Below, piece after piece: positions 18,153 to 60,229 of a stretch of DNA of 64,000 nucleotides; position 1 is the first letter of the stretch; each line of letters begins with the position of its first letter. This DNA comes from Capitulum mitella. Lineage: Eukaryota > Arthropoda > Thecostraca > Pollicipedomorpha > Pollicipedidae. The notes beneath the pieces are model-generated. The model did no database searches, was not told where the DNA came from, and was given only the letters and a program-made list of their open reading frames with translations. The translations under genes were made by a program, and so were the position numbers. The stretch is taken from assembly GCA_030062745.1 (NCBI GenBank), contig CP099849.1:20010144-20074143 (forward strand), written 5' to 3'.

Positions 18153-21100
18153 CTAGTACTGGACGATGGCCTGGACGGGAGCGGACACCTTCTCCCGGCC
18201 GGCGAGCTCCCGCAGCTCTATCACCACCAGACAGCTGACGACGCCAGCTCCCAGCTCGGAGACCAGCTGGCAGGCCGCCGACATGGTGCCTGCGGCAGGT
18301 CAGGTTGGATCAGGTCAGAGGGTCAGGTCAGCACGGGTCAGGTCACAGCAGGTCAAACCAGAGCAGGTCAAGCCAGAGGTCCGGTCAGAGCTAGGCCACG
18401 CCAGAGCGAGTCAGGTCAGTGCCGGGGTGGAGAAGTGCAGTGTCACGTCACAGAGGGACAGTTCATTGCCAGATCAGGACACCGCGGGTCGGGTCAGTAC
18501 CAGTTCAGGTCAGAGAGAGTCAGGCCAGTAACGACCAGGATATGAAGGGTTAGTTTAGTGCCAGTTCAGGTCACAATGAGTCAGGTCGGTACCAGTTCAG
18601 GTCAGAGCAGACCAGGTCAGTAAGGTGACGAAGGGCTAAGCCAGTGCCAGTTCAGGTCACAATGGGTAAGGTCAACGTCATATCAGGTCCGAAAGTCAGA
18701 ACGGGTGAAGCTGGAACGGATAAGATTGCCGCCAGGCAGCAAAACTAACATGACCATGAGCAAAACACATACGCATGAACATCACCAGCAGCGAGCCATT
18801 CAGCGGGTCATCGCCGTCGTCGACCGGGGCGACGTTTGATCCACCTCACCGAAATCACAACACGCAGATCACGACATGGCAAGCCGGTCAGAGCAACACA
18901 ACACCCGGGTCAGCGTCATTACGACACGGGCCAGTCTGACATAAGACGCCGGTCAACGACCACAGACGCCAGTCAGGACAACAGAGGATGGAGGTCGACA
19001 CGGCAGCCGACCTGGTTCACCGCGTCAGTCGACTCAGGCCCGACCAGCCGAACCAGGCAGCTCAGAGAGATGTTAGTCGCTGTTTAGATCGACAGCCAAC
19101 ACTCCTGTTGACGCCCCGTCAAATCGGTTCGTTCAAATCAAATCAAATCGGTCCCTGCGTCCACTGAGCGGCCTCCAGGAATCGTAGCAGCATTGCCACA
19201 ACAATGCGGAACCCGAGCGACGAGGCTAATGCTGATATATTGAACGCATAAATAACATATGTCAAACTGGCAGTTGAAGGATTTTACTGCGCTCACATCC
19301 GAGTATCCGAGCAAGAAATATATGGTGGCAAACTCTGGTCTTTCAAGTCTAATGGTGCAGGTATGAGGAGCTGGGTCTTAATGCACTTGTCGGATCTGAA
19401 CTACACCAGTCAGAATGCATGATTTAGTGGTAAGCTGAGCGATCAATTGCAAGAATATCCGAGTGGCCACGGGTAGGCAAGGCTACAAGCATGCTGCCTT
19501 AAAGGCACGACTCGTCTGCCGCAATTTAAAGACTTTACCATGCTTACCACCTTCACTATATTAACAAAATAGTATTGCACCACGCTAAGTAGAAGTAAAA
19601 TATAGTATACGCCATTACTACTAAACGCAGATATCGATAGTACCTAAATCAAAATGTAACGTGATCCCAACAACTTAAACAGGGCTATACACATCACGTA
19701 GCAGGCATTCATTTCGCACCCTACAGCCGCTATCAGCACCTGCCCGGAGACAGAACGCGCCAGCCTGTCACAGGGCGGCCGTGTGGTTAAGTGCACGGCA
19801 CGATACACACACCCACCTCGTTTACAGTTCAGTGCCTGGGGCAAATCACAACACGTTTCCCAACACATGGGTAGATGGTTCAGCATTCATGCAAAAGGCT
19901 AGGCTCAGGAGGACTCCATCCGCCCTCCCATCCTCTGTAACCCCGATCTTTCTCAAAACCCCTTTCCAACACAATTAAGTGCCAGTCAAACCTGTTTCCT
20001 TCATCCCATAGCTCCGAAATGATCAGAATTGGTCGAAAGAACTCAGTCCAAAACCAAACCAATCAAATCAAGACGAACTCGGGTCAGGGCAACGTGCCTC
20101 AACAAATTCAGAAAAACACGAACGATCGCTACACATATAGCCGCCGTTTCATGCAGACCTGCGCAAGAGACGACATGCGACTACCGAACACCGCTAGCGG
20201 GCACCGTTAGACTGCAGAGCGCCAATAGCCTTGCCCAGACACGAAGCGCAGCAGCAGGCCGAACCGAGGGAACCCCGTGAGAAGGAAAGAGCAGACTCCA
20301 TCACGACAGGAACCGGGCGGCGAACCCACCGCCAGTAGCCAGCAGGTCGTCCACGATCAACACGTTCTGCCCCTCGGCGATGCTGCCCTCCTGGATTTCG
20401 AATGTGTCCTGAAGGAAGGCGATCGCAGCTGGTCAGAAGCCGTGAAACAATGGCGACGTCAAACCCAACAGATACGGCTGAATACGTGCAAATAAATCGT
20501 CCGTCAAAAACATCGTTTGGAACAGAAAAATAACACATAAAAAATGTTCTGCGGGTAGCAGCCAGCAATAGAAATGCAAACTGAGGTATCGTTTACATGC
20601 AGACCAGAGAACGCTAACCTGATTTTACGTGGCCGCGCCCGAGTCTGTGTTGTCGGCCCTTCCGATGGCAGGAAAACGTTGCCTTGAAGACACCGCGTGG
20701 CCAGATGGCGTTCTCACCATATCATGCATCTGCCTCACGGGACCTAGGATCACTAGCTGTACTTCAGAATTTCACATGGAGAACAACCCCCCCATTCTGT
20801 TGTCAGTATTTTTTGTCTGCCCAAGCTCATGGCCAAAAGATCCTCACCTTTTCCTGATCCTGAACTTATAGGTGACGCTTGTATCACCACATACACCGTA
20901 GTTGACCATCTACCCCACTCGAGTTGGTAAACGTCTAAGGATCATCGCATTCCTCCCTAGCGAACGAGGCGCAGTGCAACACCCACCTCTCCATACTCCA
21001 GCTTGTAGCAAACGCTGCGGACGGCACCGGGCAGTTTCCCGCGCTTTCGGATCGGAACAAAGGGCACGCCGAGCTCCAACGCCAGCAGCGGGCCGAACAG

Positions 21101-21998
21101 GAAGCCGCGCGCGTCCAGCGCCACGACGACGTCAACAGCCGGATCCAACTGGCGGGCACGCGCCACCAGGACATCCTTCAGCGCCGCCAAAGCCTCTGGC
21201 TGCAGCAACACGCTGAACACGTCCCTGAGGGCGAACCGAACGAATCAAGCGTTTGACAGGTACATGTTCGCGGTGTAACTGATCTACAAGGAGCTGGGAT
21301 AGATGCGCGTTTTTCAACGTGCAATTTACACGCGTATGCGCTGGAGTGGCAGCTGCAAAACGTGATGAATATCAAAGCCGCTGCCAGAGCTCGATCGTCT
21401 CAAAAACAACGTAGCAAAATTTCGATGCAGTCAACGACGACACAAAAATGAATCCGAAAAAATCATCCAACATAAGGTTTCTTGGTCACATTTAAAGTTC
21501 AATAAACTCTGCATTGCAGAATGACGCAGTATAATTTTGGCGTTACGTCCAACATCGGAAGCATTCAGAGTGGTCTTTGAACACAGTGAGGCAGACTTTC
21601 GAACATCATGATGTCCACAAAATGGCGGCAGCAATATGCAGTGATCGTCTTACAAATTTCAAGACTAAAATGCATTAGGATAGGATATGATTCCAGGTTA
21701 TCTAAAGGCCGTCAGTCGTTACTGTCTTGCAGCGCTACCGTTATATACATGTACGTACGCTATAGTTAAGGTACACAGTCATGTCGTAGCGTGTTTGGGA
21801 CTCATCTATTGCCAACGATCAGACGTTCCTAGATATCCCAACTAGCATGACAACAGGCTTATGACTTACGGCTTGAATTGCTTATTCCCAGCCACCAGCG
21901 TACATGAAAGCGACTCACCTGAATAACACACCTTTCCGCGGGAAGTCAGGATATGACTTTATTGCCTTTTCAATCGTTGCGATTTTGCCCTCCGACAT
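18153..21998 (-). CDS. APRT: Adenine phosphoribosyltransferase, 4 exons
   Basis: Purine salvage enzyme, cytosolic, condensing adenine with PRPP to give AMP and pyrophosphate. Exons in transcription order: 21998-21919, 21224-20987, 20408-20330, 18289-18153, all with GT-AG borders and compatible phases. They total 534 nt, 177 aa (human APRT is 180). Motifs: N-terminal [24 protein letters not shown] 62-72, IRKRGKLPG 85-93, the Glu103-Tyr104 pair aligned with the catalytic-loop Glu-Tyr of human APRT, and the PRPP-binding loop [13 protein letters not shown] 122-134. The last exon starts at the split Gly133 (GTMSAAC) and ends VQY-stop, like the human C-terminus. The start ATG is the only one that fits the family length. 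Intron 3 (2.04 kb) is filled at its 3' end by an AGGTCA-type array. The gene diverges from GART across about 5.7 kb. Confidence 0.95.
18290..18720 (+). repeat. Degenerate CAGGTCA minisatellite in APRT intron 3
   Basis: About 430 bp built from loosely spaced copies of caggtca / gtcaggtca with variable short linkers. Read on the minus strand (TGACCTG) it runs straight into the acceptor of APRT exon 4 (tgacctgccgcag). A more diverged gccggtca continuation reaches about 19075. The hexamer AGGTCA is the consensus nuclear-receptor half-site; whether it is bound is unknown. Confidence 0.85.
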
Positions 21999-24160
21999 AA
22001 TCGTTGTTTGGAATGTACTGCGAACAGGTTGAACAATATTACCAGAAGATCTGGCCGTAAAACATGATGCTGCCGGCTAACAGAAACGTATGAAAATATC
22101 ACCGTCTGTTACGCACGGTGCTGGAGTCCTGAAAACGGGCAAAGAAGTACGAAAATTCCTCCCGGGCCAAAACGAACCAAAAGGCCCTTCCATTAAAAGG
22201 AAACAACATTTGCATGTCCTGGTAACACCTGCCCATGAATTTTGGTATCCAGCCATAATATAAAAATGGCGCTTCTGCCTCTTTTATTGGATGTGTGCAC
22301 AGGGATGCACTAAGTCATCCAACAATGGTCTTATTAACCCCCGCCGAAATTCGCTATTTCGCCACCTTCGACAGTATGGGGGGGAGTGTGCGAACCCAAA
22401 GCCATTTCCAAATCTAAAGTGCTAGAGCGACGAAACAGAGACGAGTGTGCAGCGTGGTCTTATGGCTACGCAATGACACTCCCTTTAGCCATTTCAGGTC
22501 GCACAGTGGCCTTACACGCTGCCTCAAATGCGGTGACTTCGGTGGATTCTGGTTTTCGTTGGATCCTATGGAGTTTTCAGTTTGAACTTTCGTTTAATCT
22601 ACAGGGCGCTTTTAAGGGTCCCAAAGGGACTTTGAACAATGAAGCACTCAAACTAATATGTACATGCAGATCAGTATTTCCGATTACATCGCAACCCCCC
22701 TGAGGTCGATCAAAGGTCGAAAAACGTCAGCAGCCAACTCATGATATTATGAGATGACAATGATCACACGGCATTCAGAACAGCTATCATTTCATCAGAC
22801 CCATCACTGATACAATGGGTGATATTCATGTATAAGATACAGCAAGACTGAACATCGTAGACGCTTAAAATGTATGTTATCCAATGAAGAACGTCGCCGT
22901 AACGCAATTTCTTGGCGATGTGCCCTAAACCCTCAAGAAAAGTCATAGGTCAATGATCTGCAAAGGTAATGACCTCAAATTTTCAGTTAATGTGTAAAAA
23001 GATGCACCACCCAGGTACGCGAATGATCAGAGCGATCAAAGACGGCGTTCTGGGGCAACTTGCAAAAACATCAGGTGGGGGCGCACCCCACATGTACCGC
23101 TGGGGGTTAGTAAAATCTACTCGTCTGGTGGATCCTTCAGCATGAATTGTATAAATGACACTTGTTTTTGTACGAATACTTGTACGAACACTGTGATGTT
23201 ATTCACGGTAGTCATGGTCACGTGACATTCAAAATGGCCGGTCCCATGGCTTTGTAAAATGAATGCTGAATCTTGCTGAAACGCTCCACAGCGACTAGAT
23301 ATTCCCAAACAGAGATACTGCTGAAAACAGGGAGTTCTGGGCAGAGATGCATGTGCAATTGTGCAATATGGGGAAAATGTACGGAACTGAAAGTTTGGGA
23401 TGGGGTAGAAGTAGGGAGCAAGAATGAAACAGAGTTGGGAAATAGAGCCTTGTTCCACAGCTTGTAATTACTTTGCAGTATGCACATTTTTTTTTATTTT
23501 CTGCATATACCATGTTAATTCCCTGCAGGCATAGAAGATGATTCGCCATAAGTGTGGTAATCGGTTTGACATATGCCAAATGATCAGTTTGCTGTAGTTA
23601 TAGTTCTTGGTTATCATAGTTGCAGTAACTGGTTTTGGCTACCTGCATAACTGCATACATAACTGCATTGGCATAATTGCAGTAACTGGTTAATTACCAG
23701 GCTGTAAGCCTGGTAATTGGCTTTCTGTGGCCACTGAAATTAGTTTGCCATATAGTACTTGATTTCCCATAGGCATGGCAATCAGTTTCCATTAGGTGTA
23801 ATAATCTGTTTGCTGCCGGCATAGTAATGCTTTTTGAAAGGGTACGGTTCAGTTAAATTAAACTAAGTAAGGGTAGCTTAGGCTTGACTACTTACTGCTG
23901 GCAATAAAAGCTGCATTTTTGTTTCCTATATCTGATGTATTTTTGAGCTTCTACTAGTGCAATGTTTTATTCCTGTTTCAGTTACCTTGGATCACATGTG
24001 TTTTATTGATTACTTTACTGTTTTCAGTATGTGAAATTTGAGGAATTAATTTGTTTTCTGACATGATCACACAATTGCATTTTATTTGTTCACAGTATAG
24101 TTATGTAGTTTTACTCCAGTTCATTTTGCAATATTTCTGGTCACCACATTTCTGCATAAC
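21999..24160. other. Spacer upstream of APRT, no gene recognised
   Basis: The APRT promoter must lie here (minus strand), but no TATA box or other clear element is seen. The rest is AT-rich with the degenerate array at 23.56-23.83 kb. Confidence 0.5.
23560..23830 (+). repeat. Degenerate AT-rich array with a perfect hairpin
   Basis: Loosely repeated 20-30 bp phrases such as ctgcataactgcatacataa, ttgcagtaactggtt and ggcatggcaatcagtttcc. Inside it, 23692-23718 is a perfect 12-bp stem (aattaccaggct / agcctggtaatt) with a 3-base loop. Confidence 0.65.
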
Positions 24161-24552
24161 AAATTTGGTAATCCTTTAGAAGCGCGCGCCATAAACCAAG
24201 CACACTGGATGACACATATATGGCGCGCGTGGCAAAAGGAGACGTCAGCTGTTGCAAGAAACAACAACATTATGCACTGGAGCTCCAGGGTCGTGGATCA
24301 CCTACTATTCGCTAACCTAACCTAACCTAACCTAACCTAACCTAACCTTACCTAACCTAACCTAACCTAACCTAACCTAACCTACTGTGTAAAACAAGAG
24401 CGAATAGTAGGTGATCTACGACTTGGAGCTCCAGTGCATAATGTTGTTGTTTCTTGCAACAGCTGACGTCTCCTTTTGCCACGCGCGCCGTATATGTGTC
24501 ATCCAGTGTGCTTGGTTTATGGCGTGCGCTTCTAAAGGATTGCCACAAATTT
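24161..24552. mobile_element. Palindromic element with a CCTAA (TTAGG telomere-type) core
   Basis: Left arm about 24161-24312 and right arm about 24400-24552 are inverted copies of about 150 bp with only a handful of mismatches (for example tggtaatcctttagaagcg against its complement at the right end). Between them lies (CCTAA)n at 24313-24384, about 14 units with one cctta variant, plus 15 non-repeat bases. No protein is encoded. The outer borders and any target duplication are not clear. It could be a foldback-type element or a palindrome formed around an interstitial telomere repeat. Confidence 0.8.
24313..24384 (+). repeat. Interstitial telomere-like (CCTAA)n block
   Basis: About 14 near-perfect pentamers CCTAA, complement TTAGG, the telomere repeat of most arthropods. 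One unit is altered (ccttacctaa). It sits exactly at the apex of a long inverted repeat. Confidence 0.95.
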
Positions 24553-25981: not shown

Positions 25982-25985
25982 TTAA

Positions 25986-27184: not shown

Positions 27185-27188
27185 TTAA

Positions 27189-27742
27189 GGAATATGATGC
27201 TGCACAATAAGGAAAGGGCATGCCTGCTTTAACTGCAGTGATACACACATTCTCCTGCCACTGGGTTTTATGTAAAGATGTTCTGGGGTTTGTTCCCAAA
27301 CTTAGAGCATTCAGCCTTTTCAGTTTGTGTGATTTTATGAAAGCTGGCAACAAACTGACTTCTGATTGTGATTCAGATTGAAACTGATTGGAATCATGTG
27401 TAAAAGGAAATACTTGCATGAAAACATGCTGCCATGTTTGTAAATGTCTTTTTGTGAACATAAACTTCGGTTAATAGCAAAAAATACTACTACCTACCAT
27501 GACTGGTAACTCAGTTCAGTGCTGGACTCCAATTCCTAATAATGTAGGCCAGAGTCACTTGCATAATCATTATTTGACCCATGCATCACCCACCATTTAG
27601 TGCATGTCTCATTTCATTTTTATTTGTTTAGTTGACTTTGAATCAACTTTGATAAGGTAAAGTCCAGATAGTTTGTTTATTGAAAATTCAAGTGCTGTAT
27701 GCTCATTGCATCTGATGACATACATTTTTGATCTTTCTTTGC
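27189..27742. other. Upstream of GART, probably 5'UTR intron or promoter
   Basis: AT-rich sequence ending in the pyrimidine tract and acceptor before the GART start. The first exon and promoter are not identified. Confidence 0.5.
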
Positions 27743-27744: not shown

Positions 27745-27746
27745 AT

Positions 27747-39754
<12,008 letters not shown>

Positions 39755-41913: not shown

Positions 41914-41917
41914 TTAA

Positions 41918-43126: not shown

Positions 43127-43130
43127 TTAA

Positions 43131-45551: not shown

Positions 45552-45616
45552 GCTGTAACATATTGACATCATCAGATCAAGATGTGCTTTGATGCAAGCA
45601 AAGATTGAGGCTGAAA

Positions 45617-48600
45617 ATGGCACCCAGTCCTAAGAGTCGTCTTGAGGCCTCTCTGTGTGAGAACTGTTATGAGGTGTTCTTCTCAAAGAAGGCCTTTGAC
45701 CATCATGGAAAGGTGTGCTCACAGTCGCAGACAGCGACGGAAGCAAGAGCCGCGATCAGCAGGAGCTCCGTGCTCTCGAAGTGCGACAAATGCCGACGGA
45801 TCTTCCTCGGCAAGGACAACCTGGCCCAGCATGTCACTAGGGAACACAACAAGAAGGTCTTTGTCCTCAAGTCAGTAGTGTCCTGCAACATCTGCAAAAA
45901 GCTGTTCATGGAGAACGGCCTGCTGGAGAAGCACCGGCGGCAGGCGCACCCAGAAGCGGAGGCGGCTATCGGCGCCGCCGTGCCTCTCTCCACCATCATC
46001 GCCTCGGCGGCCGTGGGGGCGCCCAAGGCTGACGGCGGTGGTTGTCGGAAGGCGGCAGCCTCGTCCGAGGGCGGCGCCGCCGCGCAGGCAGAGAGCGGTG
46101 AGCCGCCGCCGGCCGCGGCCGAGGCGGTCCCGGGCCCGGCCGCCGAGGCCGAGCCCGCGGCGGAGGCGGGGGCCGAGCCGGAGCGGTCGGTCGGAGCCGG
46201 CGGCGATGCTGTCGGCGGCCCGCGGGACGCCTCGGGCGGCGAGCGGCCGGCGGCGACAGAGGACGGCGCCGCGGTGCCGGCGGCGGCAGACAGTCCGGCT
46301 GAGAGCGACACGCCGCCAGCTGAAAAGGACAGTCAGGCCGAGAGAGACGCAGAGCCTGCTGAGGCAAACAGCCAGCCCGGGGGTGACGCCTCGCTAGGTG
46401 GAACAGACTGTCACACGGGTGATGCAGAGTCAGCTGAGACAAGCCGACAGGTCGATGGCGATGCAGATCCAATCCAGACAGAAAAACAGGCTGGTGACGA
46501 TGCAGAGTCAGCCAGGGCAGACAGTGAGGCTGGTGGCGACGCAAAGCCAGGCAAGACAGACGAACAGGCTGGTGGCGACGCAGAGCCAGCCAAGGCAGCC
46601 AGACAGGCCGGACGCGGCAAAATAGTGGGCAAGATGCTGGCCAAGGTCGGCGGTGAGGGCGTCTTGTTCGCGTGCGGCTCATGCAGCCTCATGGTCGACA
46701 ACAAGGACATGCTGATGAAGCACCTGATGGAGAAGCACGGCCACGGCGCGGTCGTCTCCACCGTCCCGAAGCCGCCGCCCTCGGCACAGGCCGCAGACTC
46801 CCAGACGCCTTCGAAGTCGGCCGCGGGCGTGGCCCAGGCCACCATGTTCGCGTGCGGCCTGTGCAACGCCAAATACGACACCGTCGAGCTGGTGCGCTAC
46901 CACATCACGTCGGCGCACGGCTCGGCGTCCAAGCTGCGCCTGGCGCTGGGCGGCAAAACGCCGCCGGCGCCGCCGACCCGGCCGGAGCCGGAGTCGGTCT
47001 GGTCGACGGTGGAGTGCGTCGTGTGCTCGAGCCTGTTCCGGCCGTCGGTGCGGCTTCGCGACGTGTTCATGAGCCTGGCCGAGTGGACGAGCCACTTCTA
47101 CGGCCGCCACCAGCGGCTGGACAAGGCGACGTCGCGCAAGCGGCTGGAGCTGCGGCCCTGCCACCGCTGCGGCCTCGTGTTCCTCAACAAGCTGACGCGC
47201 ATGCACCACAACGTGATCGCGCACAGCGGCCAGGACCCGGAGGAGGAGCTGAAGCAGCGGCAGCGCACCGAGATCACGGCCTCGCCGGCGGTCGCGCCGA
47301 CCGCGCAGATCGCGCCCAAGGCGCTGACGGCCAAGGCGCGCTCGCGCGTCATCGTGGACTCGCTGATGCGCGCCTCGCTGGTTTCGCGCTCGGCGCCGAC
47401 CGTCGTCATGGACCGCGAGACGGCGCGCCGCGTCCAGAAGCGCGTGTTCGCCGCGCACGCGACCGGCCAGCAGCGCGTCACCAACGTGGTGTTCAAGTGC
47501 AGCAAGTGCGGCGGCATGTTCCCGGACGACCCGTCGTTCGAGCGGCACGCGCGCGAGGCGCACCAGGGCGAGGGCAAGGCCAGGGGAAAGAGCGGCGGCG
47601 GCGGCGGCAGCGGCGGCGCGCCGGCCTCCTCGCCGTCGCCGCGGCCGCCCGACCCGCCGCCGGCCGTCGACACCGGACAGTGGAGCGTGCTGGACCAGCG
47701 CGAATGCGCCGAATGCTCCAAGCTGATGGAGTCGTGCCCGCGCTCGTTCGCGCTCTTCGTGCGCCGCGCCGTGTGGGAGCAACACGTGAACGAGGTGCAC
47801 GCGACCGGGCGCTGGCGGTGCACTGGCGAGCGGCTGCGGCTGCATCCTTGCGCCCAGTGCCCGCGCCTCTTCCTGCATCCGAGCACGCTGGAGGCGCACA
47901 AGACCAAGCTGCACGACACGATGGCCGGTGCCGTCACTCAGGCAGAGGCGGACGCCTGCGAGCTGCTGGCCACGATCGAGTGCAGCCGGTGCTCGCAGCT
48001 GGTGCAGAACGCCGACGGCATCCGCTTCGTGGAGCACAGCGCCTGGGAAAAGCACTTTCACGGCGACCACACGGAGCTGCTGCTCTGTGACGGCAGGGCC
48101 GGCGACTGGCAGCTCTTCCGCTGCGCCAAGTGTCCGCGGCTGTTCTTCAGCGAGCGGGACGTGGCCATGCACGAGGCGCGCCAGGCGTACATGCACATGC
48201 CGATGCCGATCAACGCCAAGGTGACGACGCTGAAGCTCGGCGGCCGCGGCGCGCAGGAGGAGACCGAGATCCTCTACCAGTGCGCCAACGGCGAGTGCCG
48301 CTTCACCAGCAAGGAACACGACGGCATGGTGGAGCACTTCCAGCAGTGCCGGCGGGACAACCCTGCCGAGACGGGCGAAACGCTGCTCTACAAGACGGTG
48401 CTGGTCAAGAAGGGCCCCAAGCGGCGGCCGCGCAAGACGTCCAGCGGCGCGCGCCGCACCAAGCCCAACCGGCGGTTAGAAAACGTGCTGAAGAAGCTGG
48501 ACCCGGGCCGGTCGGAGCCGGAGGGTGCCGCGGCCGAGGCGCCGCGGCCGGCGCCGGCCGACGGCCTGGCCGTGCTCGAGCTGGACCCGGTCACCAGCGA

Positions 48601-50776
48601 GCCACGCTCCAGCCACCCTGTGGTGCTGGCGGCCGAGGACGTGCCAGAAGCGGCCGCCGAAGAGGTGACGGTCGCCGCCGAGGAGGAGGTCTCAGCCGGC
48701 GAGGCGCCGGCCGATGGCGAGGCGGCTGGCCGCGGCGCCTTCCGCATGGACTTTGCCTGCAGCGTGTGCAGCATGCGCGGCTCCAGCAAAGAGGAGATCG
48801 CGCTGCACATCAAGCGCATGCACAAAGAGGCAGACGCCAGCGCCGTGCGTCGCGGCATGAGCGAACAGGAGCGGCAAAAGCAGGTGGACGGCTACAAGTC
48901 GGCCTACCTGTGCGCCGAGTGCAAGCGGATGGCCGAACCATGCGAACGCACGCGCGACCTCTACTTCGAGAAGGCGGCCTGGCTGCGCCACCTGAGCTCG
49001 TCGCACGAGCCGCTCGGCTTCTCCGAGCTGGACCGGCTGGAGCTGCACGAGTGCGACGACTGCGAGCGGCTCTTCCTCAGCGCCGCGTCGCTCAAGCGGC
49101 ATGCCAAGTGCTACCACGAGGAGGGCGCCGAGCATCGGGACTTCCGGCGGCCGGACCTTGAAGAACGGACGCCCAAGCACAAGTTCAGCTGCGTGGAAGA
49201 GGGTTGCGACTTCCAGTACCACCGGGTTACGCGGCTGCGCTCGCACCTGATCACGGAGCACAACTTTGACCTGGCCGTGCGCGAGGTGGTGTTCAAGACG
49301 GAGGACGACTTCCAAGAGTGGAAGAAGACGCTGGAGCTCAACACCAACGCCTTGTACATAATGCGCTCCAATGTGCAGGCCAAGCGGAAGAAGGGCACGT
49401 ACAACGTGCGCTACTTCGTGTGCTCGCGCGTCATGGCGCACCTACCCGCATACAAGGAGAACGGCAAGAAGAAGACGCAGCGGTGGCAGGTGAACCTGCT
49501 GAAGCGAGACATGGTGTGGCGCTGCCCGGCCTTCATGAAGGCCGAGGTCGCTGTGGGCCAGACGGATGAGCCGGGCATCCGCGTCTCCTTCTGCCCGAAC
49601 CACTACGGCCACGAGATGGACGCGTCGTTCGGCCGGCTCAGCGACCAGGACGAGGCCGAGATCGGCGGCATGCTGCGCGCCGGCATGAGCATCCCGGACG
49701 TGCTGAAGCGCATGCGCGAGGAGGGCCGCCAGCAGGGCACGCCCAACCGGAAGCAGCGCGTCACCGAGATGGAAATCAACCGCATCTACGAGAAGTACAT
49801 TGGGCTGCGCGCGCCCAAGGCCAAGCGGTTCGGCGGGGCGCTGGACCGACTGCGGGCACGCGGCGGCAAGGCGGCGGCAGCGGCGGCCGCCGTCGCCGCG
49901 GCCGGGGCAGGCCGCACCACGGTCAGCTGGAACGCCGAGCTGGTGGCCTCGGACGACGTGGGGGACGCCGAGCCGGAGACGTCGCTGGACGAGGCGGACC
50001 GCAGCGCCGACCTGGACGAGGAGGTGGCCGCGCCGGGCACGGGCGACTCGTGGCAGCGCGTCTGCGGCGAGGAGGACTGCCAGTTTACCACCAACAGCGT
50101 CGGTCACCTGCGCTACCACCTCCGCAGCCGGCACGGCTTCGCCATGCACATCGACTCGGCCGGCTTCGCCAACATGAAGGAGTTCACCAAGTGGAAGCGC
50201 AGCCTCGAGAAGCGCACGTGCGCCCGGTACACGTGTTACAAGTGCGTGTCGGCGTCCAGCCCGGACGACCCAGTCGACACGCGCTACTTCACCTGCCACC
50301 GGTCGGGCCTGAACTCGCTGAAGCGGTCGCCGGCGCAGGCGCCGGCTCCGCGCCGCCTCGTGCTCTGCACGGGTTACATGAAGGTGCGCTGCGACCGCGT
50401 GTCGGGCGAGGTGGCCTGCGAGTACTGCGCGAGCCACTACGGCCACGACGCGCGGCTTGTGGCCGGCCGGGCGCCGCCGCCGCTGCTGGAGGCCGACTAC
50501 GGCGCCGGCGAGGAAGAGGAGGCGGTGTCGCAGTCGCCGTCGCCGGTGCGGCGGTACAGCTACGTGCGCGCCGAGGAGGCGTACAGCCCGCCGTCGGCGG
50601 CGTCCACGCCGGAGCGGCCGCCGCGCCGCGGCCGCCCGCCCAAGAAGCGGCCGGCCGCGCCGCGCCGCAGTCGCGGAGGTAAGCGGCGCCGCTGGGAGGA
50701 GATGGAGGTGGACGAAGACGACGACGACGACGACTACCGGGAGGACGACGACGAGGCCATGTTCGAGTCGGACTAG
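45617..50776 (+). CDS. Large intronless multi-C2H2 zinc-finger protein with two transposase-derived modules
   Basis: 1719 aa, probably a nuclear DNA-binding protein; no named ortholog recognised. Start is ATG 45617, with an in-frame TGA at 45590 just upstream. From N to C: three fingers (Cys14, Cys56, Cys90), an Ala/Glu-rich low-complexity region 112-345 with 13-residue repeats (235-333), then about fifteen fingers at roughly 352, 412, 468, 515, 628, 697, 745, 789, 836, 889, 1048, 1099, 1146, 1192 and 1483. Some have a long spacer between Cys and His pairs, with a conserved Trp before the first His. After the fingers at 1192 and 1483 comes a similar module: an F..(D/E)F..WK.(T/S)LE segment, a Cys near Y-F-V/T-C, a CPAF/CTGY Cys, and a C-x2-HYGH motif. 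The first is followed by LSDQDEAEIGGMLRAGMSIP, typical of MULE/FAR1-like transposase N-termini. The C-terminus has an AT-hook-like RRGRPPKKRP, basic NLS-like stretches and an Asp/Glu tail. Codons are very GC-rich. Confidence 0.9.
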   Translation: MAPSPKSRLEASLCENCYEVFFSKKAFDHHGKVCSQSQTATEARAAISRSSVLSKCDKCRRIFLGKDNLAQHVTREHNKKVFVLKSVVSCNICKKLFMENGLLEKHRRQAHPEAEAAIGAAVPLSTIIASAAVGAPKADGGGCRKAAASSEGGAAAQAESGEPPPAAAEAVPGPAAEAEPAAEAGAEPERSVGAGGDAVGGPRDASGGERPAATEDGAAVPAAADSPAESDTPPAEKDSQAERDAEPAEANSQPGGDASLGGTDCHTGDAESAETSRQVDGDADPIQTEKQAGDDAESARADSEAGGDAKPGKTDEQAGGDAEPAKAARQAGRGKIVGKMLAKVGGEGVLFACGSCSLMVDNKDMLMKHLMEKHGHGAVVSTVPKPPPSAQAADSQTPSKSAAGVAQATMFACGLCNAKYDTVELVRYHITSAHGSASKLRLALGGKTPPAPPTRPEPESVWSTVECVVCSSLFRPSVRLRDVFMSLAEWTSHFYGRHQRLDKATSRKRLELRPCHRCGLVFLNKLTRMHHNVIAHSGQDPEEELKQRQRTEITASPAVAPTAQIAPKALTAKARSRVIVDSLMRASLVSRSAPTVVMDRETARRVQKRVFAAHATGQQRVTNVVFKCSKCGGMFPDDPSFERHAREAHQGEGKARGKSGGGGGSGGAPASSPSPRPPDPPPAVDTGQWSVLDQRECAECSKLMESCPRSFALFVRRAVWEQHVNEVHATGRWRCTGERLRLHPCAQCPRLFLHPSTLEAHKTKLHDTMAGAVTQAEADACELLATIECSRCSQLVQNADGIRFVEHSAWEKHFHGDHTELLLCDGRAGDWQLFRCAKCPRLFFSERDVAMHEARQAYMHMPMPINAKVTTLKLGGRGAQEETEILYQCANGECRFTSKEHDGMVEHFQQCRRDNPAETGETLLYKTVLVKKGPKRRPRKTSSGARRTKPNRRLENVLKKLDPGRSEPEGAAAEAPRPAPADGLAVLELDPVTSEPRSSHPVVLAAEDVPEAAAEEVTVAAEEEVSAGEAPADGEAAGRGAFRMDFACSVCSMRGSSKEEIALHIKRMHKEADASAVRRGMSEQERQKQVDGYKSAYLCAECKRMAEPCERTRDLYFEKAAWLRHLSSSHEPLGFSELDRLELHECDDCERLFLSAASLKRHAKCYHEEGAEHRDFRRPDLEERTPKHKFSCVEEGCDFQYHRVTRLRSHLITEHNFDLAVREVVFKTEDDFQEWKKTLELNTNALYIMRSNVQAKRKKGTYNVRYFVCSRVMAHLPAYKENGKKKTQRWQVNLLKRDMVWRCPAFMKAEVAVGQTDEPGIRVSFCPNHYGHEMDASFGRLSDQDEAEIGGMLRAGMSIPDVLKRMREEGRQQGTPNRKQRVTEMEINRIYEKYIGLRAPKAKRFGGALDRLRARGGKAAAAAAAVAAAGAGRTTVSWNAELVASDDVGDAEPETSLDEADRSADLDEEVAAPGTGDSWQRVCGEEDCQFTTNSVGHLRYHLRSRHGFAMHIDSAGFANMKEFTKWKRSLEKRTCARYTCYKCVSASSPDDPVDTRYFTCHRSGLNSLKRSPAQAPAPRRLVLCTGYMKVRCDRVSGEVACEYCASHYGHDARLVAGRAPPPLLEADYGAGEEEEAVSQSPSPVRRYSYVRAEEAYSPPSAASTPERPPRRGRPPKKRPAAPRRSRGGKRRRWEEMEVDEDDDDDDYREDDDEAMFESD
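46319..46613 (+). repeat. In-frame 39-bp (13-aa) coding repeat array in the zinc-finger gene
   Basis: About eight units of the pattern A(E/K)x(D/N)xQAGGDAEP, for example ARADSEAGGDAKP and GKTDEQAGGDAEP. One unit is a residue shorter (12 aa). The units code for an acidic, probably disordered linker between the N-terminal and the main finger clusters. Confidence 0.85.
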
Positions 50777-51012: not shown

Positions 51013-51018
51013 AATAAA
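51013..51018 (+). terminator. Poly(A) signal of the zinc-finger gene
   Basis: AATAAA followed by a T/G-rich stretch (gtttttgtttttgtccgtgg), about 240 bases after the stop codon at 50776. This is the classic signal and downstream element arrangement. Confidence 0.8.
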
Positions 51019-53538
51019 GTTTTTGTTTTTGTCCGTGGGAGCGTTGTTGTTTAATGTCAGTCGTAGCTGAACGGAAAGTGTCGCGTATAGAATATATTTT
51101 GCATCCATAAGTTCAGCCTGTGCAGATATTTACCTTTGAACGGTTGCCTCTCCCTGTACGCAGTCACTAGACTGTTTTGCCGTATGTGCGGGCAATTGGA
51201 TTGGAGGCGACATATGCTGAAGCGGACCTTGCCGAATATGCATTGCTTAACTAACCATCGTCGATGCAGAGTGATCCAAGCTACCAGTCCGGGTATACGC
51301 CTTGATCCGATGCCCCGGTCAGATGTGTCGCACTGATCCACGTTCCACAGTGCCGGTCCTGTCGACCAACGACTGTATCGATTTGACCTGACGCAGTAAT
51401 CCATACTGCCGGCCCTGGACAAGCAGTGACCCAGGCGCCCCCTTCTATTGCTCGAGGTGATGGGACGTCATGCTCCCTGACGACACGAGGTGATGTGACG
51501 TACCGCTCCGGTCCGACACGAGGTAATCTCACGTACCGCTCCGGTCCGAAGCGAGGTGACCTGACGTACCGGTCTGGTTCCCACACAACGTAATTCGACG
51601 TACCGTTCCGTGACGTCATGAGGTGATATGACGTAACGCTTTGGTCCACGGGCGCAGGGTTGATGTTCGCTCTAGCTTTGTTTACGAATGGCTGCGCTCA
51701 GAGCTGGCCGCCAGACGAACCAGAATGGCCACGTCTGGAGTTGTTCACCTGTGCTGAGGGACGCCTGGTGAGGAGCCGAAGTTCTTTGGAAACTGCTGCT
51801 GTCGTGTGAATGACGTGCGGGCGAGTTACTATAACGGGGAATGGGACATCGAAGAAGCTGGGCGTTGTGCAATGGCCGGCTGGGGCTTTGATGGGTCAGC
51901 AATGACTGGTGTGAGAGGTTCGCCATCCCCGATGTTTATCCTGCACCAGACGCGGGATGCCTGCAAGACATCCCAACATGTCCAAGAAGTGTTGGTCCGT
52001 CGTGCGTTTCTGCGCAGTACATCCCACCGGCGGTCTAGTCGAGCCCGACAGTGATAATAAATAATGGTGTTGTTTTCCGATGATTTACGACGTACCAGTG
52101 CGCCGCGTCGAGGAGCGTTGGGTGGAGAAAGCACAGGCTGATGGGGACGGGAAGCTGTGGGTTTCTATGCTGACAAATTTAAAATGAGCAGACTAGCTAT
52201 TCGATCGTTCGACGTCCTGCTGAAGACAGTCGTTCATGATGTTCGCTGGACGGCCAAACCCTGATTTACAACTAACGCCACCTATCGGTTGCGCCAGACG
52301 ACGCGACGACGACGCTTCGCAGGACCAACACAGGGTTCCAGCTTCGATAAATGCTACGTCCTCTCGGAAGTCTGCATTGAAAATTAATGGTTTCCACGGG
52401 TTCAATTACGGTGTTCTGCGCGAAAACCTAGTGCGAAGTCCGCTTTGCACCCTTAGTTTCAAACGAAGTCAAGTCCCGGACCAAATGCGCACAATTCAGC
52501 CAGCTCTGTGTATTCGTCCATACGATACAGCAGCTACCGGCCGGTGTATGTACAGCACTACAGCTACGTCTAAACTGGGTGTGTGCGGCTGGACGGCCGA
52601 CTGCCCGCTCCAGATCGCCGGAGGGCATCCCGGACACGGACAGCGGCCCAACGCGTCCGCCCGAGTTCTGTCACCTTATCAGTACACACCACACGGCCAT
52701 TCACGTAACACTTGTCATATGAGACACTGGGTATAGCTGTTTGCGCCCTGTAACAGGAGGGGCCGCTCCTAATGGGATATTCTGTAAAATATGCGTTCTT
52801 CGTAACAATTTTGGTGGTTGACGACCACAACGACCGGGCCTGGGAACAAAAATGAAAAGAAGCATAAAGCGCCACTGCACTGCAACCGTGTGCGCAGTGT
52901 ACAAGCGCATTGCGACATACGTAAGGCATACGCACATGGCCGAACGCGATCAGTCTGTGCATTATTCGACGGTAAAAGAATAGCAAGCGATGATATTTAC
53001 AATTTACGCAACCTGTTACGTATGCAAGCAGCAAAATTTAGCCTCCTTTCCAGCATCCTCCAGTTCAACCACCTTCGCCTTATCACGATGACTATGGTTT
53101 GTGGGAAGCAATCCGAATTAACAAACGAGAGGGCACTGGGCAGATTCCGCCCATTCTCAGAGTTAGTGACTGGATGACGATGCATACACACGAGTTAAAA
53201 CGTCGATACTGGTCCCTACGGGCGTGACACCCTAGGCGTCGTTCTGTCTGAACCAAGAGTCGCACCTGACGAAGAATCCGCGCGACATTTGGATGGCCAA
53301 CCTGTGCATCTCTCACGGAGAAGCCACCGTGGCGGGTACAACGGGACCCGCAGCTCTGACCGGGCGCTCCGCCAGGCACAGCGTCCACCAGAGGCCGACG
53401 TCTCCGTCGAAAAGTTCGCAAACGTCCTCTCGGTTCACCCGCGGGCATCCGCCAGCGTCGGTCGGGGCCCGTCGGAGGCACCACGTGACCGCGCAGGTCA
53501 AGCCAGGTCACGGCGCCGGGCCAGGTCACGTGACGCGC
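51019..53538. other. Intergenic between convergent genes
   Basis: It lies between the 3' ends of the zinc-finger gene (plus) and the cytochrome b561 gene (minus). It holds the 33-bp minisatellite and short frames only. AGGTCA-like phrases cluster at about 53490-53530. Confidence 0.5.
51452..51650 (+). repeat. 33-bp minisatellite downstream of the zinc-finger gene
   Basis: Six units of 33-34 bp with the consensus acgaggtgatgtgacgtacc, gctccggtccgac. Copies 2 and 3 are nearly identical; the outer copies are diverged. Confidence 0.85.
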
Positions 53539-53689
53539 TCAGAGGTCGGTGGCGATCACGGCGCGGCCGTGACTCTGGCGGAAGGCGCGCTGCGAGGTGA
53601 GGCAGGCCACCACCACGGCGGCGGCCACCAGCGCCATGGCCAGCGTGTTCACCACGATTCCTTCGTCCGGCAGCGAGGGGTACGTGTCC
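53539..53689 (-). CDS. Cytochrome b561 alternative last exon b (distal)
   Basis: It starts after acceptor gctgccggcag with the same phase as exon a and encodes 49 residues: DTYPSLPDEGIVVNTLAMAL, a transmembrane helix rich in Ala and Val, and tail FRQSHGRAVIATDL-stop. It matches exon a position by position (DTYPSL/STYSSL, VVN, LAMAL/FAMCL, FRQS), so the pair arose by tandem duplication. An AGGTCA-like cluster lies just beyond the stop (53490-53530). Confidence 0.85.
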
Positions 53690-56600
53690 CTGCCGGCAGC
53701 GGAGGGCCAGCGTGAACCCCCACCACCAAACCCCAGGCGACGATCAGGGGCGTGCAAGCAGTCGGGGAACAGCAGGACGCCCGCGCCGGCCGCCAGGGGT
53801 TATTCAAGCACTACGGAAGCGAGGTAGATCAGCCAGGTCCGTGGCGCCCGCTAGTCCGCTCCGCGCCCTGTTAGAGAGGCAGGCTGTCAGGCTGCAAAAG
53901 GCCCGCACAAGGCAGGTGAGATGCTGCGGTTAGTCGGGTCCTTTGTACAGAGCGGTTAGCCTCTACCGACCCGGGCCTGGTGGTGATATGGTATGTTCAG
54001 TGTGGGAAGACGCTATGCTTTCGCACTGGTCCTCTGTACAAGGACCAGTCTTCCTCTTGCAGGAGTGAGTTCCGCAACCGTGAGTTCCGCAAGCTCACCC
54101 AAGCGACAGAAACAGCTCGACGTCGTCCAAGCGATGGCCATCGACAATGTCTCTCGGTCATGTCTCGCGAACGCTCTACATCGAGATGATGCGTTCAAAC
54201 CACGATGAAGATGTGAACAAAAGAACTCCAATTAAAACCACGACACGCAACAAATGACAATAAAAAAATGCGACTCATTAGTCGCAGACTGCAAAATTTT
54301 GTTTGTTATTCTTCCCCACAAAAAAAAGAAAAATCACGAAGCCCGACGCGGTCGGCGGTGCATTCAACTGTTTCCAAGATGGCGGCGCCGTTCGGGGCGG
54401 CTCGCACCTTGGCGGCACGTTCAGGCGCCGTGCTGGCGCGTGACCACGATCAGGCGCTCGTTGCTCTGTCTGAATCTGTCCAGCAGCAGCAGGATCGACA
54501 TGACTATGGCGGTGCCCACCAGACACATGGCGAACACGTTCACCACCACCGGCTCCTCGCCCAGGCTCGAGTAGGTGGACCTGCAAACGATCCGCGGTCA
54601 GACGGCCGCTGGCGGCGCCACTGGCGCGGAGGAGAGGGCGAGGGGGACTCGTCATCGTCAGTCATCGCCGGTCAGGTGTCGCCGATCGCTGTAAGAAATG
54701 CCGGCCATCGTTCTTCCTGACGGACTCCGGATATCCTCGAAACTGGAAATGTCTCTGGCAGGTCAAGGTAGGTCTGCCCGTGCGGGCAGCGACGAGCCAA
54801 GTCGCGGACAGTCGGCCAGACGCAGTTCCAGGCACATCCAGTCACGATATAGTACAAGACGGATGCGCCGCATGACGCATTACATCGGTACGTTTAACTT
54901 GGCTGAGAGCATTCTTGTACATTCACAGAGACATTCAATCAAGGTTCGGAAAAATGCATGTTTTACATAGTGTGCGATAAGATAAGATAACCGACGTGAA
55001 GAAATCACGTAGGTTACGAAGCACACATAGGCAGCACATTTAAGGGGATGTATAAGGTACTTCAAGCATGTAAAGTACTTTATGTAAAATACTTCAAGCA
55101 TCCGGAGGGCCCTGAGAGGCAATAGTATGACTTAACGATGAACAGTGCATTATCAGGACAATCCTCAAATACCTGTGCTGTCAAAAGAACGGAAAACAAA
55201 AAAGAACAAAAACTAGTTAGTGATGTCCTCGCGTAACACACAAAGTTGATAAATATCAACACTATGATTACATGTCAAACATTTACTTTCCTGGACACTT
55301 GCACCGCAAGCTTTCAACATGATCTCAGGGAAATATGGAAAAATGTGAATGACCCACTTAATTCTGCCTATTCGTCTCATTGCTTTGCGCCCCTTTCGTA
55401 ACGTAACTTTGCCAATCAACGCTCGTGCACCTTGGGGAGAGAATGCATGCATCCCTATTTACCCCACAGCTGTGGGGTCAATTAAATTCAATAAGGAAAT
55501 TTTCAGGAGACCATGTCTTTCCCTTTCTTCGCCTGGCGCCACCTAGGTTACTTACTCCGACGCACCACCCCGGATAAAGCGACTACCACCTCACGAGAAC
55601 GGGTCACCACTGCCACCCCGACCTCTCGCCGCCGTCTCCCCCCCCCCCCCCCACTCGGATCGGAGCCCTCACGATAGCCGGCCGACTCCGGTCCGCCCGG
55701 GCCGAGACTGCTGTCATCTCAGACGTCAGTGGCAGGCGCCCAAGGCCGGCCCGCCGTCAATGGCACGTCACCCCCTTCCCCCTCCCCCGGCCCGGGCGGC
55801 GGGAAAACATCAGCGGCAGCCTGAGGTGGCGCAGCCCGCGCCGGAGCCGACACCGCCCGGGCCGCTACAACGCGCCCACCCAGACCACCACACCGCCACC
55901 AACGACATCACCCCCACCAGGACCGCCACATCAGCCCCGCCCGGACCGCCACACCGCCGCCACCCGGACCGCCACACCAGCCCCACCCAGACTGCCACAC
56001 CACCCCTTCCCAGAACGTCACATCACCCCCACCCGGGCCGCCTCACCTCCCCTATCTGGACCTCCACACTTCCCATCCGGACCGCTACACCACCCCCACC
56101 CAGACGACAACACCGCCCCCAACGACATCACCCCCACCAGGACCGCCACATCAGCCCCGCCCGGACCGCCACACCGCCGCCACCCAGACCGCCACATCAC
56201 CCCCACCCGGACCGCCACACCAGCCCCACCCAGACTGCCACATCAGCCCTTCCCAGAACGTCACATCACCCCCACCCGGACCGCCACACCACCCCTACCC
56301 GGTCCGCCACACCGCCCCTACCCGGACCGCCACACTATTCCTAACTGGACCGCCACACCATCCTCACCCGGACCGTCACACCACCCCCACCCGGACGACC
56401 ACACCGCCCCCATTCCGACGGCCACAGCGCTCCCACCCAGACCATCACTCCCCATCCGGCAACACACTGCCCCGGCGGCCACACTCACTTGATGGTGAAG
56501 AGCACCTTCTCGGTGAGGCCCGTCAGGCAGGTGGCCACGGCCAGGAAGAAGGTGGTGATGCCGAAGCTGCTGTGGACGGGCACCAGGGCGGCCCGGAACG

Positions 56601-59600
56601 AGGCGGTGCCCGTGTCGCAGCACAACAGGATCAAGAACGAGAAGAAGCCGACCACGAACTGAAACGGCACCGCCCGGTCAAACACCTGGCCGGCACCCGC
56701 AGGACAGGCCGCGCACGTGCTCATGCTGGAACGACTAGCATGTGGTCGAGGATCCATTGCAGCGTGTTACAAGGCAGGTCGGTGGATAAGGTTTGGAGCT
56801 GGCCTGACGTTCTTGCCCTATGATGCCCTTGGTGATAACAACACCGCGCATTTTCAGTTTTGGGGAAACATCAGCTGAGAGGGTAACGGTATGCATTCCA
56901 GGAAATACGACAGACATCGCGGAGTTTCTAAACGAATCCAACCCTAATCCCACGGACGGTGGCGTTTACATCAGGACCAAAGCAGACGGCGTGTACGGGC
57001 AGCAACGGCATGCCATCCGCCGCAGGCGTCAGGCGCAGGCGGCAGCTGCGTATTACTCTTCAACAAGCCGTTTTAGACCGTCAGCAGCGAGGCTATTGCC
57101 GACGAGAATGGAGGGCATCATTTCGCCAGCAACATAAGCTACAAAAGATTATGACGACTAGAAAACAGCAAAGAATTTGCCTTTAAAACGACAAACGTTC
57201 CAAATAGGGACTCATTTTACACCATGTCCAGGAGGCCAAAATAACTGGAAACAAAAAATTTGACGAAAACGAAACTGCCCAGTTGATTTCCTGGTCGCGC
57301 CACTGGTAACAACCCATTTCCTCATTGTTCTTGTTGGGATGGCACGAGCGGGATTAAGATGAACGAGCTGGAAACGTTTGTTGCCAGGGCCTTCCCCAAT
57401 CCAATTGCACTCTGCCAAACATAGTCAGTAACTAACCTCATTGTGCAACTGACTCATACCGCAGACAAATTTAGCGGAATCACCAGGCCAAATGGTAAAA
57501 AGACAAAGAACACAAAAGGACGAGATAACGAAGGACTTGCGGCGTCTAACAGACATAGCCTGTCTTTCATCACAATCCCGACACTGCGCCGAGTCCCGTC
57601 CACTAGATACAGAAGTACATACCACGCCATCAGGCTAAGATATACCATGAGGATTCTATATTGGCTAATGGCCGTACCGCAAAGGGCTGCAGTGCTGGCA
57701 TAAGCAAGCCAGTCGGACCACAGGCCCTGTTGGTCGGAATATTTCCCACTAGATTCTCAGAGAAATAGTTCAGCTGGGTTCGCGGTTTCGAACGTTTTCG
57801 GTGGGAGCCGGAAAACGACAGCGCCCCGGAAACTTCACTCGTAAACAAAACGATCAGCCATGGGAATACGGCCGATGTGCCAACGTATGATCGTGACCGC
57901 GTAGCCAGCAGGCGTGCCGTGGTCGACTGCTCCCACGTCACTCACAAAAACTCGCAGGAAGTGTCGGGAGTTATCCAACGTTACGCGTCACGTGGCGCTT
58001 ACAATGTCCGAGGGCAGGGAAAGGCCAGGGAGCGGAGTTAAACACCCTCGCTGACTGCCCTGGGAACACGGAACACCGACGGACAACGCGTCCGCCAGGG
58101 TCGAGGTCAAGTTTATTATGCAGTGCATATACCTACCATGCAAACCGCAACTGTTGGTGTAAAACGGCTTTCCGTGCTTACATGCAGATGCATAATGCAT
58201 CGTGCATACATACGAGCAGGGGTGTTGATCTGCATTCTTTTGAGAGGGCCCTGGCCCAGTCAATGTTGATTCGGGCTCATCCAATGTTGGTTTGGGCCCA
58301 CCCAATATTTTCTGCCAGTTTTAAAGAGAAATGAGTAATAACAAAGAAAAGCTATATACGAGCGGAAAGGCCATGTTGCTGCCAAAAAAGTATTTTTTTA
58401 TTCGGTAAATGGCAGCAAGAGTTGCGAATTTCGGTTGGTCAAAATAAACTGGGCTGAATCCGCTGAGAAACCCACATTTGGGGTTAGGTTGTCGGGCTCT
58501 CGGCTCGTCCCCCCCCGAATCATTTACAGAAATCGACGCCCCTGATACCGAGCTTGAAACAACTCAGAGGAATTACTACGCACTTGAACGGGCCTATAAA
58601 TAAATCTTGGCAAACGGGATTACTTTCAACTGACTGGCTTACACTAACACGTGATTACATCAGTATTCCGGTCACACGACAAACGTTCACGTCAAAATGT
58701 GGAATAACGCTGGACTCATGACTAGGAACACCGATGCTTCAGCTTGAACATGGACCGTGAAGGATCAGAGAGAACCCCATCTGTCACAAAACATTTAGAA
58801 CTTAAGACGTTATTTAAACATCACTATACGTATTTTTGTGAGGATTTTTCCAAATCGATGCATCATTTCAACCATGTGAAGTAAGGACCAGAGGTGAACA
58901 TGAAGCCTCACAGCAGCGGTCCGTCTAGCCGAAGCCGGAGCCTCAGTCTCACACTCGAGGTCCCTGCGACTGTGAGGAAGAGATTCGACATCGAAATGGT
59001 ATCCGATGTCCTGAAGCTCGTCTACTGGGGAATGACCGCAATAAGGTTTCTGAAGCAATTTGTAAGCGGCAATACAAACTCGGGCATGACAAAGGCCTGG
59101 GGTCGGGTGGCACAGAGGCCAACGGGGGAAGCAGCGGGGCCGAACAAATAGGAGCGGCATGACGTTCTGATCAACGACCCGTCGGCCACGCCGTCCTTGA
59201 GACAGTGGTACAGTCATGACAAATATCACTAACCAGTGTCCAATCAAGGGCAGGCAAACAGTACAGTTAGTCGACCAAGGCTACAAAACGGTTCCGACTC
59301 GACAAACAAACGGGCTCCATGCTTCTCTACCTACAGGCTCATTAGCATACCTCTCCCATCTACGCACCCCGGTTAGTCGCCGTCCGGTGCGTAGTACACG
59401 CGGTCACCGATAGATGCCGCTGGGAGCGCTATTTACCGCCGGGAGTACCTGTAGTCCGTAGAGGCCGACGGTGACGAGGCCCATCCAGGAGTGCAGCGAG
59501 TACAGGTTCGGGATCGGCGTCGGCTTGTTGTTGTTGTGGAAGTCGAAGACGGCGATCAGGCCGACGGCGATACAGGGGATTGCCATGATGTGGTAGAGCG

Positions 59601-60229
59601 TGTGCACCAGCTTGATGGTCGAGTGGTTGCAGCACCGCCACTGTCTATATGCCAGCATAGCTGAAACACAAAGCAATGATTAATGGGCTTTTGCTCACTG
59701 TTCAACATTTTCCACAAATTTAGAAGTGAATAACACATCGAAATAGATCACCGTCTGTTCAAAACAGCATGACCGTGACGCTACAGCACATGTAAAATAG
59801 TCTCTGTTTACTCAACACAAGGGCATAGCACCATGAAAACACCGAAAATAAACAACATGAATTCATAACCACTGACCAAAGCAATCATCAGGCCAGTTCG
59901 TCATTCACCATTTTTTAGTTTGCAACAATATCGATTATCTTTTGTATCTCCTCACTAGACAATGACATATCGACCATACGACGCTGAGACCACTGACTCA
60001 AACGCTGCCCAGAGCAGACCGCGCTTCACTGACCGTGTCCGGCGAAGAAGATGAGGCCGGTGACCATGAGCACCGGGTGCAGGTTGAACTGCAGCTTGGG
60101 GTCCTCGGTCCAGGCGAAGCCGCCGCGGTACTTGAGGCACCAGGCGACCACCAGAGCCACGCAGCCGAACAGCAGCACCTCGGCCAGCAGCGTGAGCAGC
60201 GAGAACCAGCAGCGCGACGCCGCAGTCAT
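53539..60229 (-). CDS. Cytochrome b561 family transmembrane ferric/ascorbate reductase, 4 exons with alternative last exons
   Basis: Six-helix diheme membrane protein that moves electrons across a membrane, usually from ascorbate. Exons: 60229-60034, 59660-59449, 56658-56489, then either 54580-54421 (isoform a, 245 aa) or 53689-53539 (isoform b, 242 aa). Phases match throughout. All four heme-ligand histidines of the family are present: His51 (QFNLHP), His85 (LVHTLYH), His122 (YSLHSW), His165 (VPVHSSFG). Helices appear in the expected order: LLTLLAEVLLFGCVALVVAW, the LMVTGLIFFAG segment, IMAIPCIAVGLIAVF, WMGLVTVGLYGLQ-FVVGFF, GITTFFLAVATCLTG, and the last helix in the terminal exon. The start is ATG 60229, the first Met before helix 1; the frame stays open a little upstream, but an acceptor at 60267-60268 suggests a 5'UTR exon joins there. 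An in-frame alternative acceptor would extend exon 3 to 56685 (+9 aa), but the family has no insertion there. Confidence 0.92.
54421..54580 (-). CDS. Cytochrome b561 alternative last exon a (proximal)
   Basis: It starts after acceptor gtttgcag, supplies the last base of the split Lys codon, and encodes 52 residues beginning STYSSLGEEPVVVNVFAMCL. The final transmembrane helix follows, then a polar tail ending RLIVVTRQHGA-stop. It aligns with the C-terminal helix region of animal cytochrome b561 (GGKYS...N segment). It has its own stop codon, so it can only be a terminal coding exon. I see no AATAAA or ATTAAA between it and exon b on the minus strand. Confidence 0.85.
55830..56470 (+). repeat. 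CCCCACCCGGACCGCCACA minisatellite in cytochrome b561 intron 3
   Basis: About 30 units of 18-24 bp (cccacccggaccgccacacc and variants). A longer block is repeated: 55906-56005 recurs at about 56124-56250 (acgacatcacccccaccagg, accgccacatcagccccgcc). On the minus strand it abuts the donor of exon 3 (gtgagtgtggccgccgg), whose intronic start resembles the repeat unit. The open Pro/Thr/His-rich frame across it is a repeat artefact. Confidence 0.9.
56686..59448. other. Cytochrome b561 intron 2, nothing else recognised
   Basis: A 2.8-kb intron on the minus strand. Short open frames on either strand show no domain. Confidence 0.6.

Follow-up and report, generated by a model that had tools for sequence, protein, structure and literature searches.

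Introner elements are repeats associated with the introns of many genes, and in intron gain by tandem duplication a putative branch site and an acceptor are copied together across an intron-exon border. Closer still are the 'mirages' of amphioxus, i.e., minisatellite-like tandem duplications of intron-exon borders, which excerpts of two papers (PMC3087553, PMC3902484) report in Adh3, troponin C, the globins BflGb6 and BflGb9, and PGBD5, along with reverse transcription PCR (RT-PCR) and length instability. Here we analyzed a 64,000-nt stretch of the arthropod Capitulum mitella (contig CP099849.1 of assembly GCA_030062745.1, positions 20,010,144 to 20,074,143; hereafter, the window), in which tandem arrays lie at or near exon borders of GART, APRT, and cytochrome b561 (CYB561), together with introns sampled elsewhere in the genome. 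Given where the arrays lie, what their units contain, the exon codons that some of them copy, and their recurrence in unrelated genes, we interpret them as splice-border minisatellites of the mirage kind, tandem-duplicated from segments that contain or adjoin splice signals (probability about 0.8).

As far as the amphioxus excerpts go, mirages and the present arrays are both tandem border duplications at 5' and 3' intron ends with variable unit length, and many mirages carry AG/GT signals. The host here is an arthropod, however, most arrays abut the border rather than span it, and the 3' arrays repeat the branch point, which those excerpts do not mention. The likeness to intron gain by tandem duplication lies in what is copied, but a new intron arises there, whereas existing introns grow here. 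Introner elements share with the present arrays the tie to introns in many genes and differ in that no shared element sequence was seen between introns here. No arthropod splice-border arrays were found among the matches listed in open-licence PMC literature (titles and abstract openings). A preliminary description of the window, made from its letters, had known of no such system, which the amphioxus excerpts contradict; border duplications are already known from lancelets, and the arthropod host and the branch-point arrays look new.

Arrays in the introns of GART, APRT, and CYB561

We rebuilt the 22 introns of the three genes, every one of which is GT-AG. GART (27747..39754, plus strand) has 17 coding exons that join into one frame of 1,022 aa across 16 introns, and its product matched solved GART-domain chains with E values of 1.3e-129, 8.6e-91, and 1.8e-70 (phmmer). 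The four coding exons of what we take to be APRT (18153..21998, minus strand) join into one translation that ends at a TAG stop (18153-18155). CYB561 (54421..60229, minus strand) likewise has four coding exons joined in translation, and its identity is backed by homology searches.

Arrays were called with Tandem Repeats Finder (TRF) using permissive scores (2,3,5) on introns plus 60 nt of flank, and rows scoring at least 140 were considered strong. Seven strong arrays were detected, six of them those named in the preliminary description, and in four of the seven (GART introns 2, 8, and 14, and APRT intron 3) the array crosses the splice site or ends within 10 nt of it. The reported placement of arrays at or near exon borders in the three genes thus held, with a distance of 37 nt in CYB561 and contact through degenerate copies only in GART intron 16. 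Also upheld was the statement that the units differ between introns and do not form one dispersed family, as they range from 14 to 49 bp and differ in sequence.

Wraparound alignment and TRF place the GART intron 2 array at 28660..29014 (plus strand), where 21.6 copies of a 17-bp unit, CGTTACCCGGCTGACGT, with a mean identity of 0.74 stop 5–10 nt short of the exon 3 acceptor; the unit includes a branch-point-like CTGAC. By the same two methods, the intron 8 array (33303..33480, plus strand) has a 49-bp unit, the final copy of which finishes at the exon 9 acceptor (...gaccag|GTGG), and the intron 14 array (36917..37088, plus strand) has a 45-bp unit that crosses the donor. The first copy of the latter takes in the final 16 nt of exon 14, so that the exon end ATACCCTCCCTG is copied together with its donor; we presume that the residues encoded there are conserved in GART. 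In intron 16 (38950..39543, plus strand; unit of about 17 bp, TGTGTGACCCTGACCTC), the strong rows (scores 143 and 167) leave 126 and 211 nt to the exon 17 acceptor, which is approached to 19–22 nt only in a degenerate row (score 85) and in the wraparound alignment.

The APRT intron 3 array (18296..18699, minus strand) is of the CTGACCTG type and stops 6 nt before the acceptor of the last exon. Its period is 15/31 bp, in place of the roughly 10 bp first given, and the unit of the CYB561 intron 3 array (55877..56451, minus strand; GGTGTGGCGGTCCGGGTGGGGGT) is 23 bp instead of about 21. The strong part of the CYB561 array begins 37 nt past the exon 3 donor, a weak row scoring 55 already begins at 4 nt, and degenerate copies continue to 55554. 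The seventh strong array, a repeat of 48 bp in 2.1 copies in GART intron 11 (35510..35608, plus strand; TRF), was absent from the earlier list and lies 133 nt from the acceptor, i.e., not at a splice site.

Array edges and splice sites across the genome

The genome (477 Mb in 16 contigs) was sampled outside the window at 32 regions around myosin-head and SNF-transporter exons identified by Pfam search, which with the two window flanks gave 34 loci (L numbers); cytochrome P450 rows were excluded from the intron set because many of them cover most of the profile without a break. A small gene finder predicted 294 junctions in these loci, 118 of them supported by a gapless paralogue alignment across the junction. 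Counting was restricted to the supported junctions, and the predicted ones were kept separate because early settings over-predicted tiny exons. With the first settings, 11–12 of 25 known exons were recovered exactly at the lowest penalty and 16–19 at higher ones. The self-trained version (penalty −12, weight 1.0) recovered 18 of 25, scored on its own training genes, and this accuracy belongs to weight 1.0, not to the final settings (penalty −12, weight 0.8).

Outside arrays were counted at a score of at least 80, a period of at least 8, and at least 2.5 copies. The 118 supported introns contained nine such arrays, eight of which lie within 20 nt of a splice site, four at each intron end. Random placement in the same introns would give 2.0, and a generous seeding null, which lets a two-copy seed straddle the border and takes each intron at its length before expansion, gives 3.7 (P = 0.0013). 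The preliminary description had staked its proposal on arrays being enriched near splice sites, and the sample from outside the window bears this out. At a score of 60 the proportion was 10 of 17 (seeding null, P = 0.0009), and it was 25 of 42 (13.7 expected, P = 1e-5) in those predicted introns outside the window whose two exons each measure at least 60 nt (226 introns, supported ones included). The window, as the discovery set, had five of six arrays at splice sites at score 80 (2.1 expected, P = 0.013). The supported introns are short (n = 140, median 466 nt), and dinucleotide-shuffled versions contained 0.2 arrays scoring at least 80 per 140-intron set, compared with 15 in the real set.

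Arrays located by DNA similarity were also found next to exons. A search with a 601-base query (the last APRT exon plus its array), which predated the idea of a similarity test, recovered three other loci, at each of which the array stops 6–14 nt short of the acceptor of a same-strand predicted coding exon. These exons encode cytochrome b5 (E 6.5e-11), a PROPPIN-like protein (E 1.1e-3, below the family cut-off), and a product recognized by coding score only. A genome search with the CTGACC array of locus L004 returned 12 rows, i.e., two self matches, the APRT array, and nine new places. With only the downstream side of these nine fetched and a coding exon score of at least 20 required, seven had a coding-exon acceptor 12–41 nt downstream of the array, compared with a rate of 7% for 3,000 positions drawn at random from gene-rich loci (P = 2.6e-7). 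Named exons among the seven belong to CDC20 (E 3.9e-20), dyskerin (E 2.2e-34), and a Tma16-like protein (E 1.1e-3, below the cut-off).

Splice signals and exon codons in the repeat units

The 125 supported introns without an anchored array have a CTNAC peak 20–29 nt before the acceptor (41 hits, with 12 in the bin before it and 2–9 in the bins beyond), and from this position CTNAC is very likely the branch-point motif of the host. Supported 3' arrays (n = 8, four in the window) contain 67 CTNAC compared with 10.1 in shuffles, including 18 against 2.1 expected in APRT intron 3 and 14 against 2.5 in GART intron 16, whereas supported 5' arrays (n = 5) contain none. The donor-like GGTRNG shows the opposite distribution, with 13 hits in the five 5' arrays (2.2 expected) and three in the 3' arrays (4.9 expected). 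As copies within one array share descent, their hits are not independent and counts per array are safer: more than one CTNAC occurs in seven of the eight 3' arrays. As in mirages, the units carry splice signals, here a branch point in 7/8 of the 3' arrays and a donor in 2/5 of the 5' arrays.

Each of 13 anchored arrays was compared with its own border and ranked against the borders of all other introns. Similarity to the own border reached p < 0.05 in eight of the 13 (Fisher combined 3.6e-8), so the unit-to-border match is better than for randomly paired introns, as had been predicted. For the window genes, the claim that the unit contains or resembles its border stood for GART introns 8 and 14 (both p = 0.007), 2 (p = 0.021), and 16 (p = 0.043) and did not for APRT intron 3 (p = 0.107); CYB561 intron 3 lies beyond the 20-nt cut and was not ranked.

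Border-spanning duplication that includes exon sequence was detected in GART intron 14 (16 nt), L010_9 (23 nt), and L028_7 (12 nt), and these three arrays fall under the strict, border-spanning definition of a mirage. In the myosin VI gene at L010, a 32-bp unit that occurs 16–21 times in the intron has as its core the exon end GTGTGCTACCAGACG with its donor gtacgttaga, and eight copies retain GGTRNG. The final 15 nt of the exon, GTG TGC TAC CAG ACG, encode VCYQT, and solved myosin VI has the same residues at VCY.T. The myosin I gene at L028 has a 39-bp unit, repeated 10 times, that includes CTGAC (eight CTNAC hits), ctcag, and GAGGAGTACGTG, the last being a copy of the exon start codons for EEYV; the best solved match shares EEY. 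Conservation of the myosin codons makes the exon border the probable source and the array the copy, and judging from the sequences the same likely holds for all three arrays. Each further unit read upstream at L028 adds two stops, and the use of an upstream acceptor would therefore truncate the protein.

No clear exon copy was found in the arrays of APRT intron 3, GART introns 2, 8, and 16, CYB561 intron 3, L025_12, L020_11, L026_8, and L032_1, the edges of which lie 0–37 nt from the splice site. At L024_3 and L020_9, 19 and 48 nt of the exon, respectively, fall within the array rows, and these two arrays matched their own border no better than those of other introns.

Origin of the arrays and other repeats

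The starting point would have been the tandem duplication of a short segment with or beside a splice signal, namely the donor at an intron's 5' end or, at its 3' end, the branch point and acceptor. In some cases the last or first 12–23 nt of the exon would have been included. The copies would then have multiplied and diverged within the intron, presumably by slippage or unequal exchange. Such an array could be tolerated because the outermost junction (the first donor or the last acceptor), probably the one used, still flanks an unchanged exon. More tentatively, and at somewhat less than even odds, splice signals may be hot spots of tandem amplification, with several percent of introns (8/118 outside the window at a score of at least 80) carrying arrays seeded by a donor or by a branch point and acceptor through a process linked to transcription or splicing. 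If so, these introns would hold many consecutive branch points and supply raw material for new splice sites.

Several observations weigh against an origin at splice borders. Per-base array coverage is flat (4.4% in the first 20 nt, 3.9% in the last 20 nt, and 4.6% in the interior), and therefore the signal lies in where arrays begin or end; of the earlier proposal that a process is seeded at exon edges, the recurrence in unrelated genes and the edge enrichment stand, and the coverage does not favor it. Stricter cuts weaken the seeding-null P values in the supported introns (5/6, P = 0.048 at score 100; 4/4, P = 0.044 at score 140) and in the window (4/6 at both scores, P = 0.073). Among the nine places found with the CTGACC array, searched under the restrictions given above, L044 and L048 were negative for a downstream coding-exon acceptor, and four of the seven positive exons were recognized by coding score alone. 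CTNAC is missing from the supported 3' array L025_12, seven unsupported, predicted 3'-anchored arrays lack a branch-point excess (four CTNAC and 14 GTNAG by manual tally), and the GGTRNG excess stems mainly from L010 (eight) and GART intron 14 (four). Five of the 13 arrays failed the rank test, i.e., APRT intron 3, L020_11, L032_1, L024_3, and L020_9, of which L024_3 and L020_9 may be repeats of coding sequence, and clear exon sequence is confined to three arrays.

The flat coverage would be expected of ordinary intronic minisatellites in a repeat-rich genome with short introns, the arrays stopping at exons since selection excludes them from there, and many other arrays do occur elsewhere in the same loci, with 18 of 47 arrays scoring at least 80 in the predicted and window introns being interior. 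Arrays grow by added copies and not by consuming their flanks, however, so that the edge marks the seed, and the enrichment persists under the seeding null; the copied exon codons, the branch-point content of the 3' arrays, and the seven of nine places found by similarity would also be left unexplained, and we consider this account unlikely. Selection is a somewhat better candidate, although still a doubtful one: extra branch points or donors would strengthen or buffer splicing, and arrays near splice sites would survive while others decay. The repeated CTNAC in nearly all supported 3' arrays fits this, as does the somewhat better preservation of the unit core relative to other 5-mers (nine arrays, mean z 0.72, permutation P 0.009). 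The difference is small, however, with L004 showing none and L028 the reverse, selection leaves the exon-codon copies and the donor arrays unaccounted for, and upstream acceptor use in L028 would bring in-frame stops. For the arrays that copy exon codons and donors, mutational bias is the simpler reading, and 3' arrays may in addition owe part of their survival to selection for extra branch points. A mobile or dispersed introner-like repeat inserting at splice sites might be suspected, as CTGACC-type arrays turn up at unrelated genes and retrieve one another in DNA searches. This is very improbable, given that units vary in length and sequence between introns and exon-derived parts are gene-specific, and the shared branch-point motif accounts for the similarity.

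With splice-border minisatellites as the favored reading, a lancelet curiosity of a few genes becomes a feature that can be measured in an arthropod genome. Mapping branch points is difficult, and repeated ones offer a natural way to test how the spliceosome selects among many equal signals. Should the seeding be mutational, splicing or transcription would be linked to DNA duplication, with a bearing on intron lengthening and on new splice sites.

Further arrays and repeats were observed in the sampled loci. A 57/50-bp array runs across the cut between two regions (L021:9567-9900 into L020:16-174, gene orientation) at a predicted junction without paralogue support; its unit holds an acceptor-like stretch and the coding-looking RDAELASQ, and it is perhaps another border-spanning case. 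Locus L007, which adjoins the window, has more CAGG- and GAGGTGAG-type arrays (528-676 and 2764-3149), the second of which starts within a predicted exon, 20 nt from its end, and contains repeated donor-like sites. Muscle-myosin-like genes (L022-L027; C16, C15, and C14) have 2–4 adjacent copies of the exon at profile positions ~377-436, which suggests mutually exclusive alternative exons. Of 94 cytochrome P450 matches genome-wide, 43 span more than 400 of the 462 profile positions in one stretch, and many of these genes appear to be single-exon, with several clustered (C9, C2, and C15).

In the window, a 33/67-bp array rich in TGACGTACC and GAGGTGAT (51452-51647) has no assigned adjoining gene and could mark an unrecognized splice site. 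A 73-bp (CTAAC)n array (24312-24384) lies far from a contig end, and its unit corresponds by rotation to TTAGG, the telomere repeat of arthropods. This array and 150 scored Chitin_bind_4 cuticle matches (of 627 candidates) in the genome led us to reject amphioxus as the host, which the mirage papers had brought to mind. Open frames at 9159-10269 with a reverse-transcriptase-like YTDD motif perhaps belong to a Penelope-like element. A 39/78-bp minisatellite (46456-46622) is in frame within a 1,727-aa open frame (45593-50776) that has C2H2 zinc-finger matches, and it encodes repeated GDAE..AG peptides.

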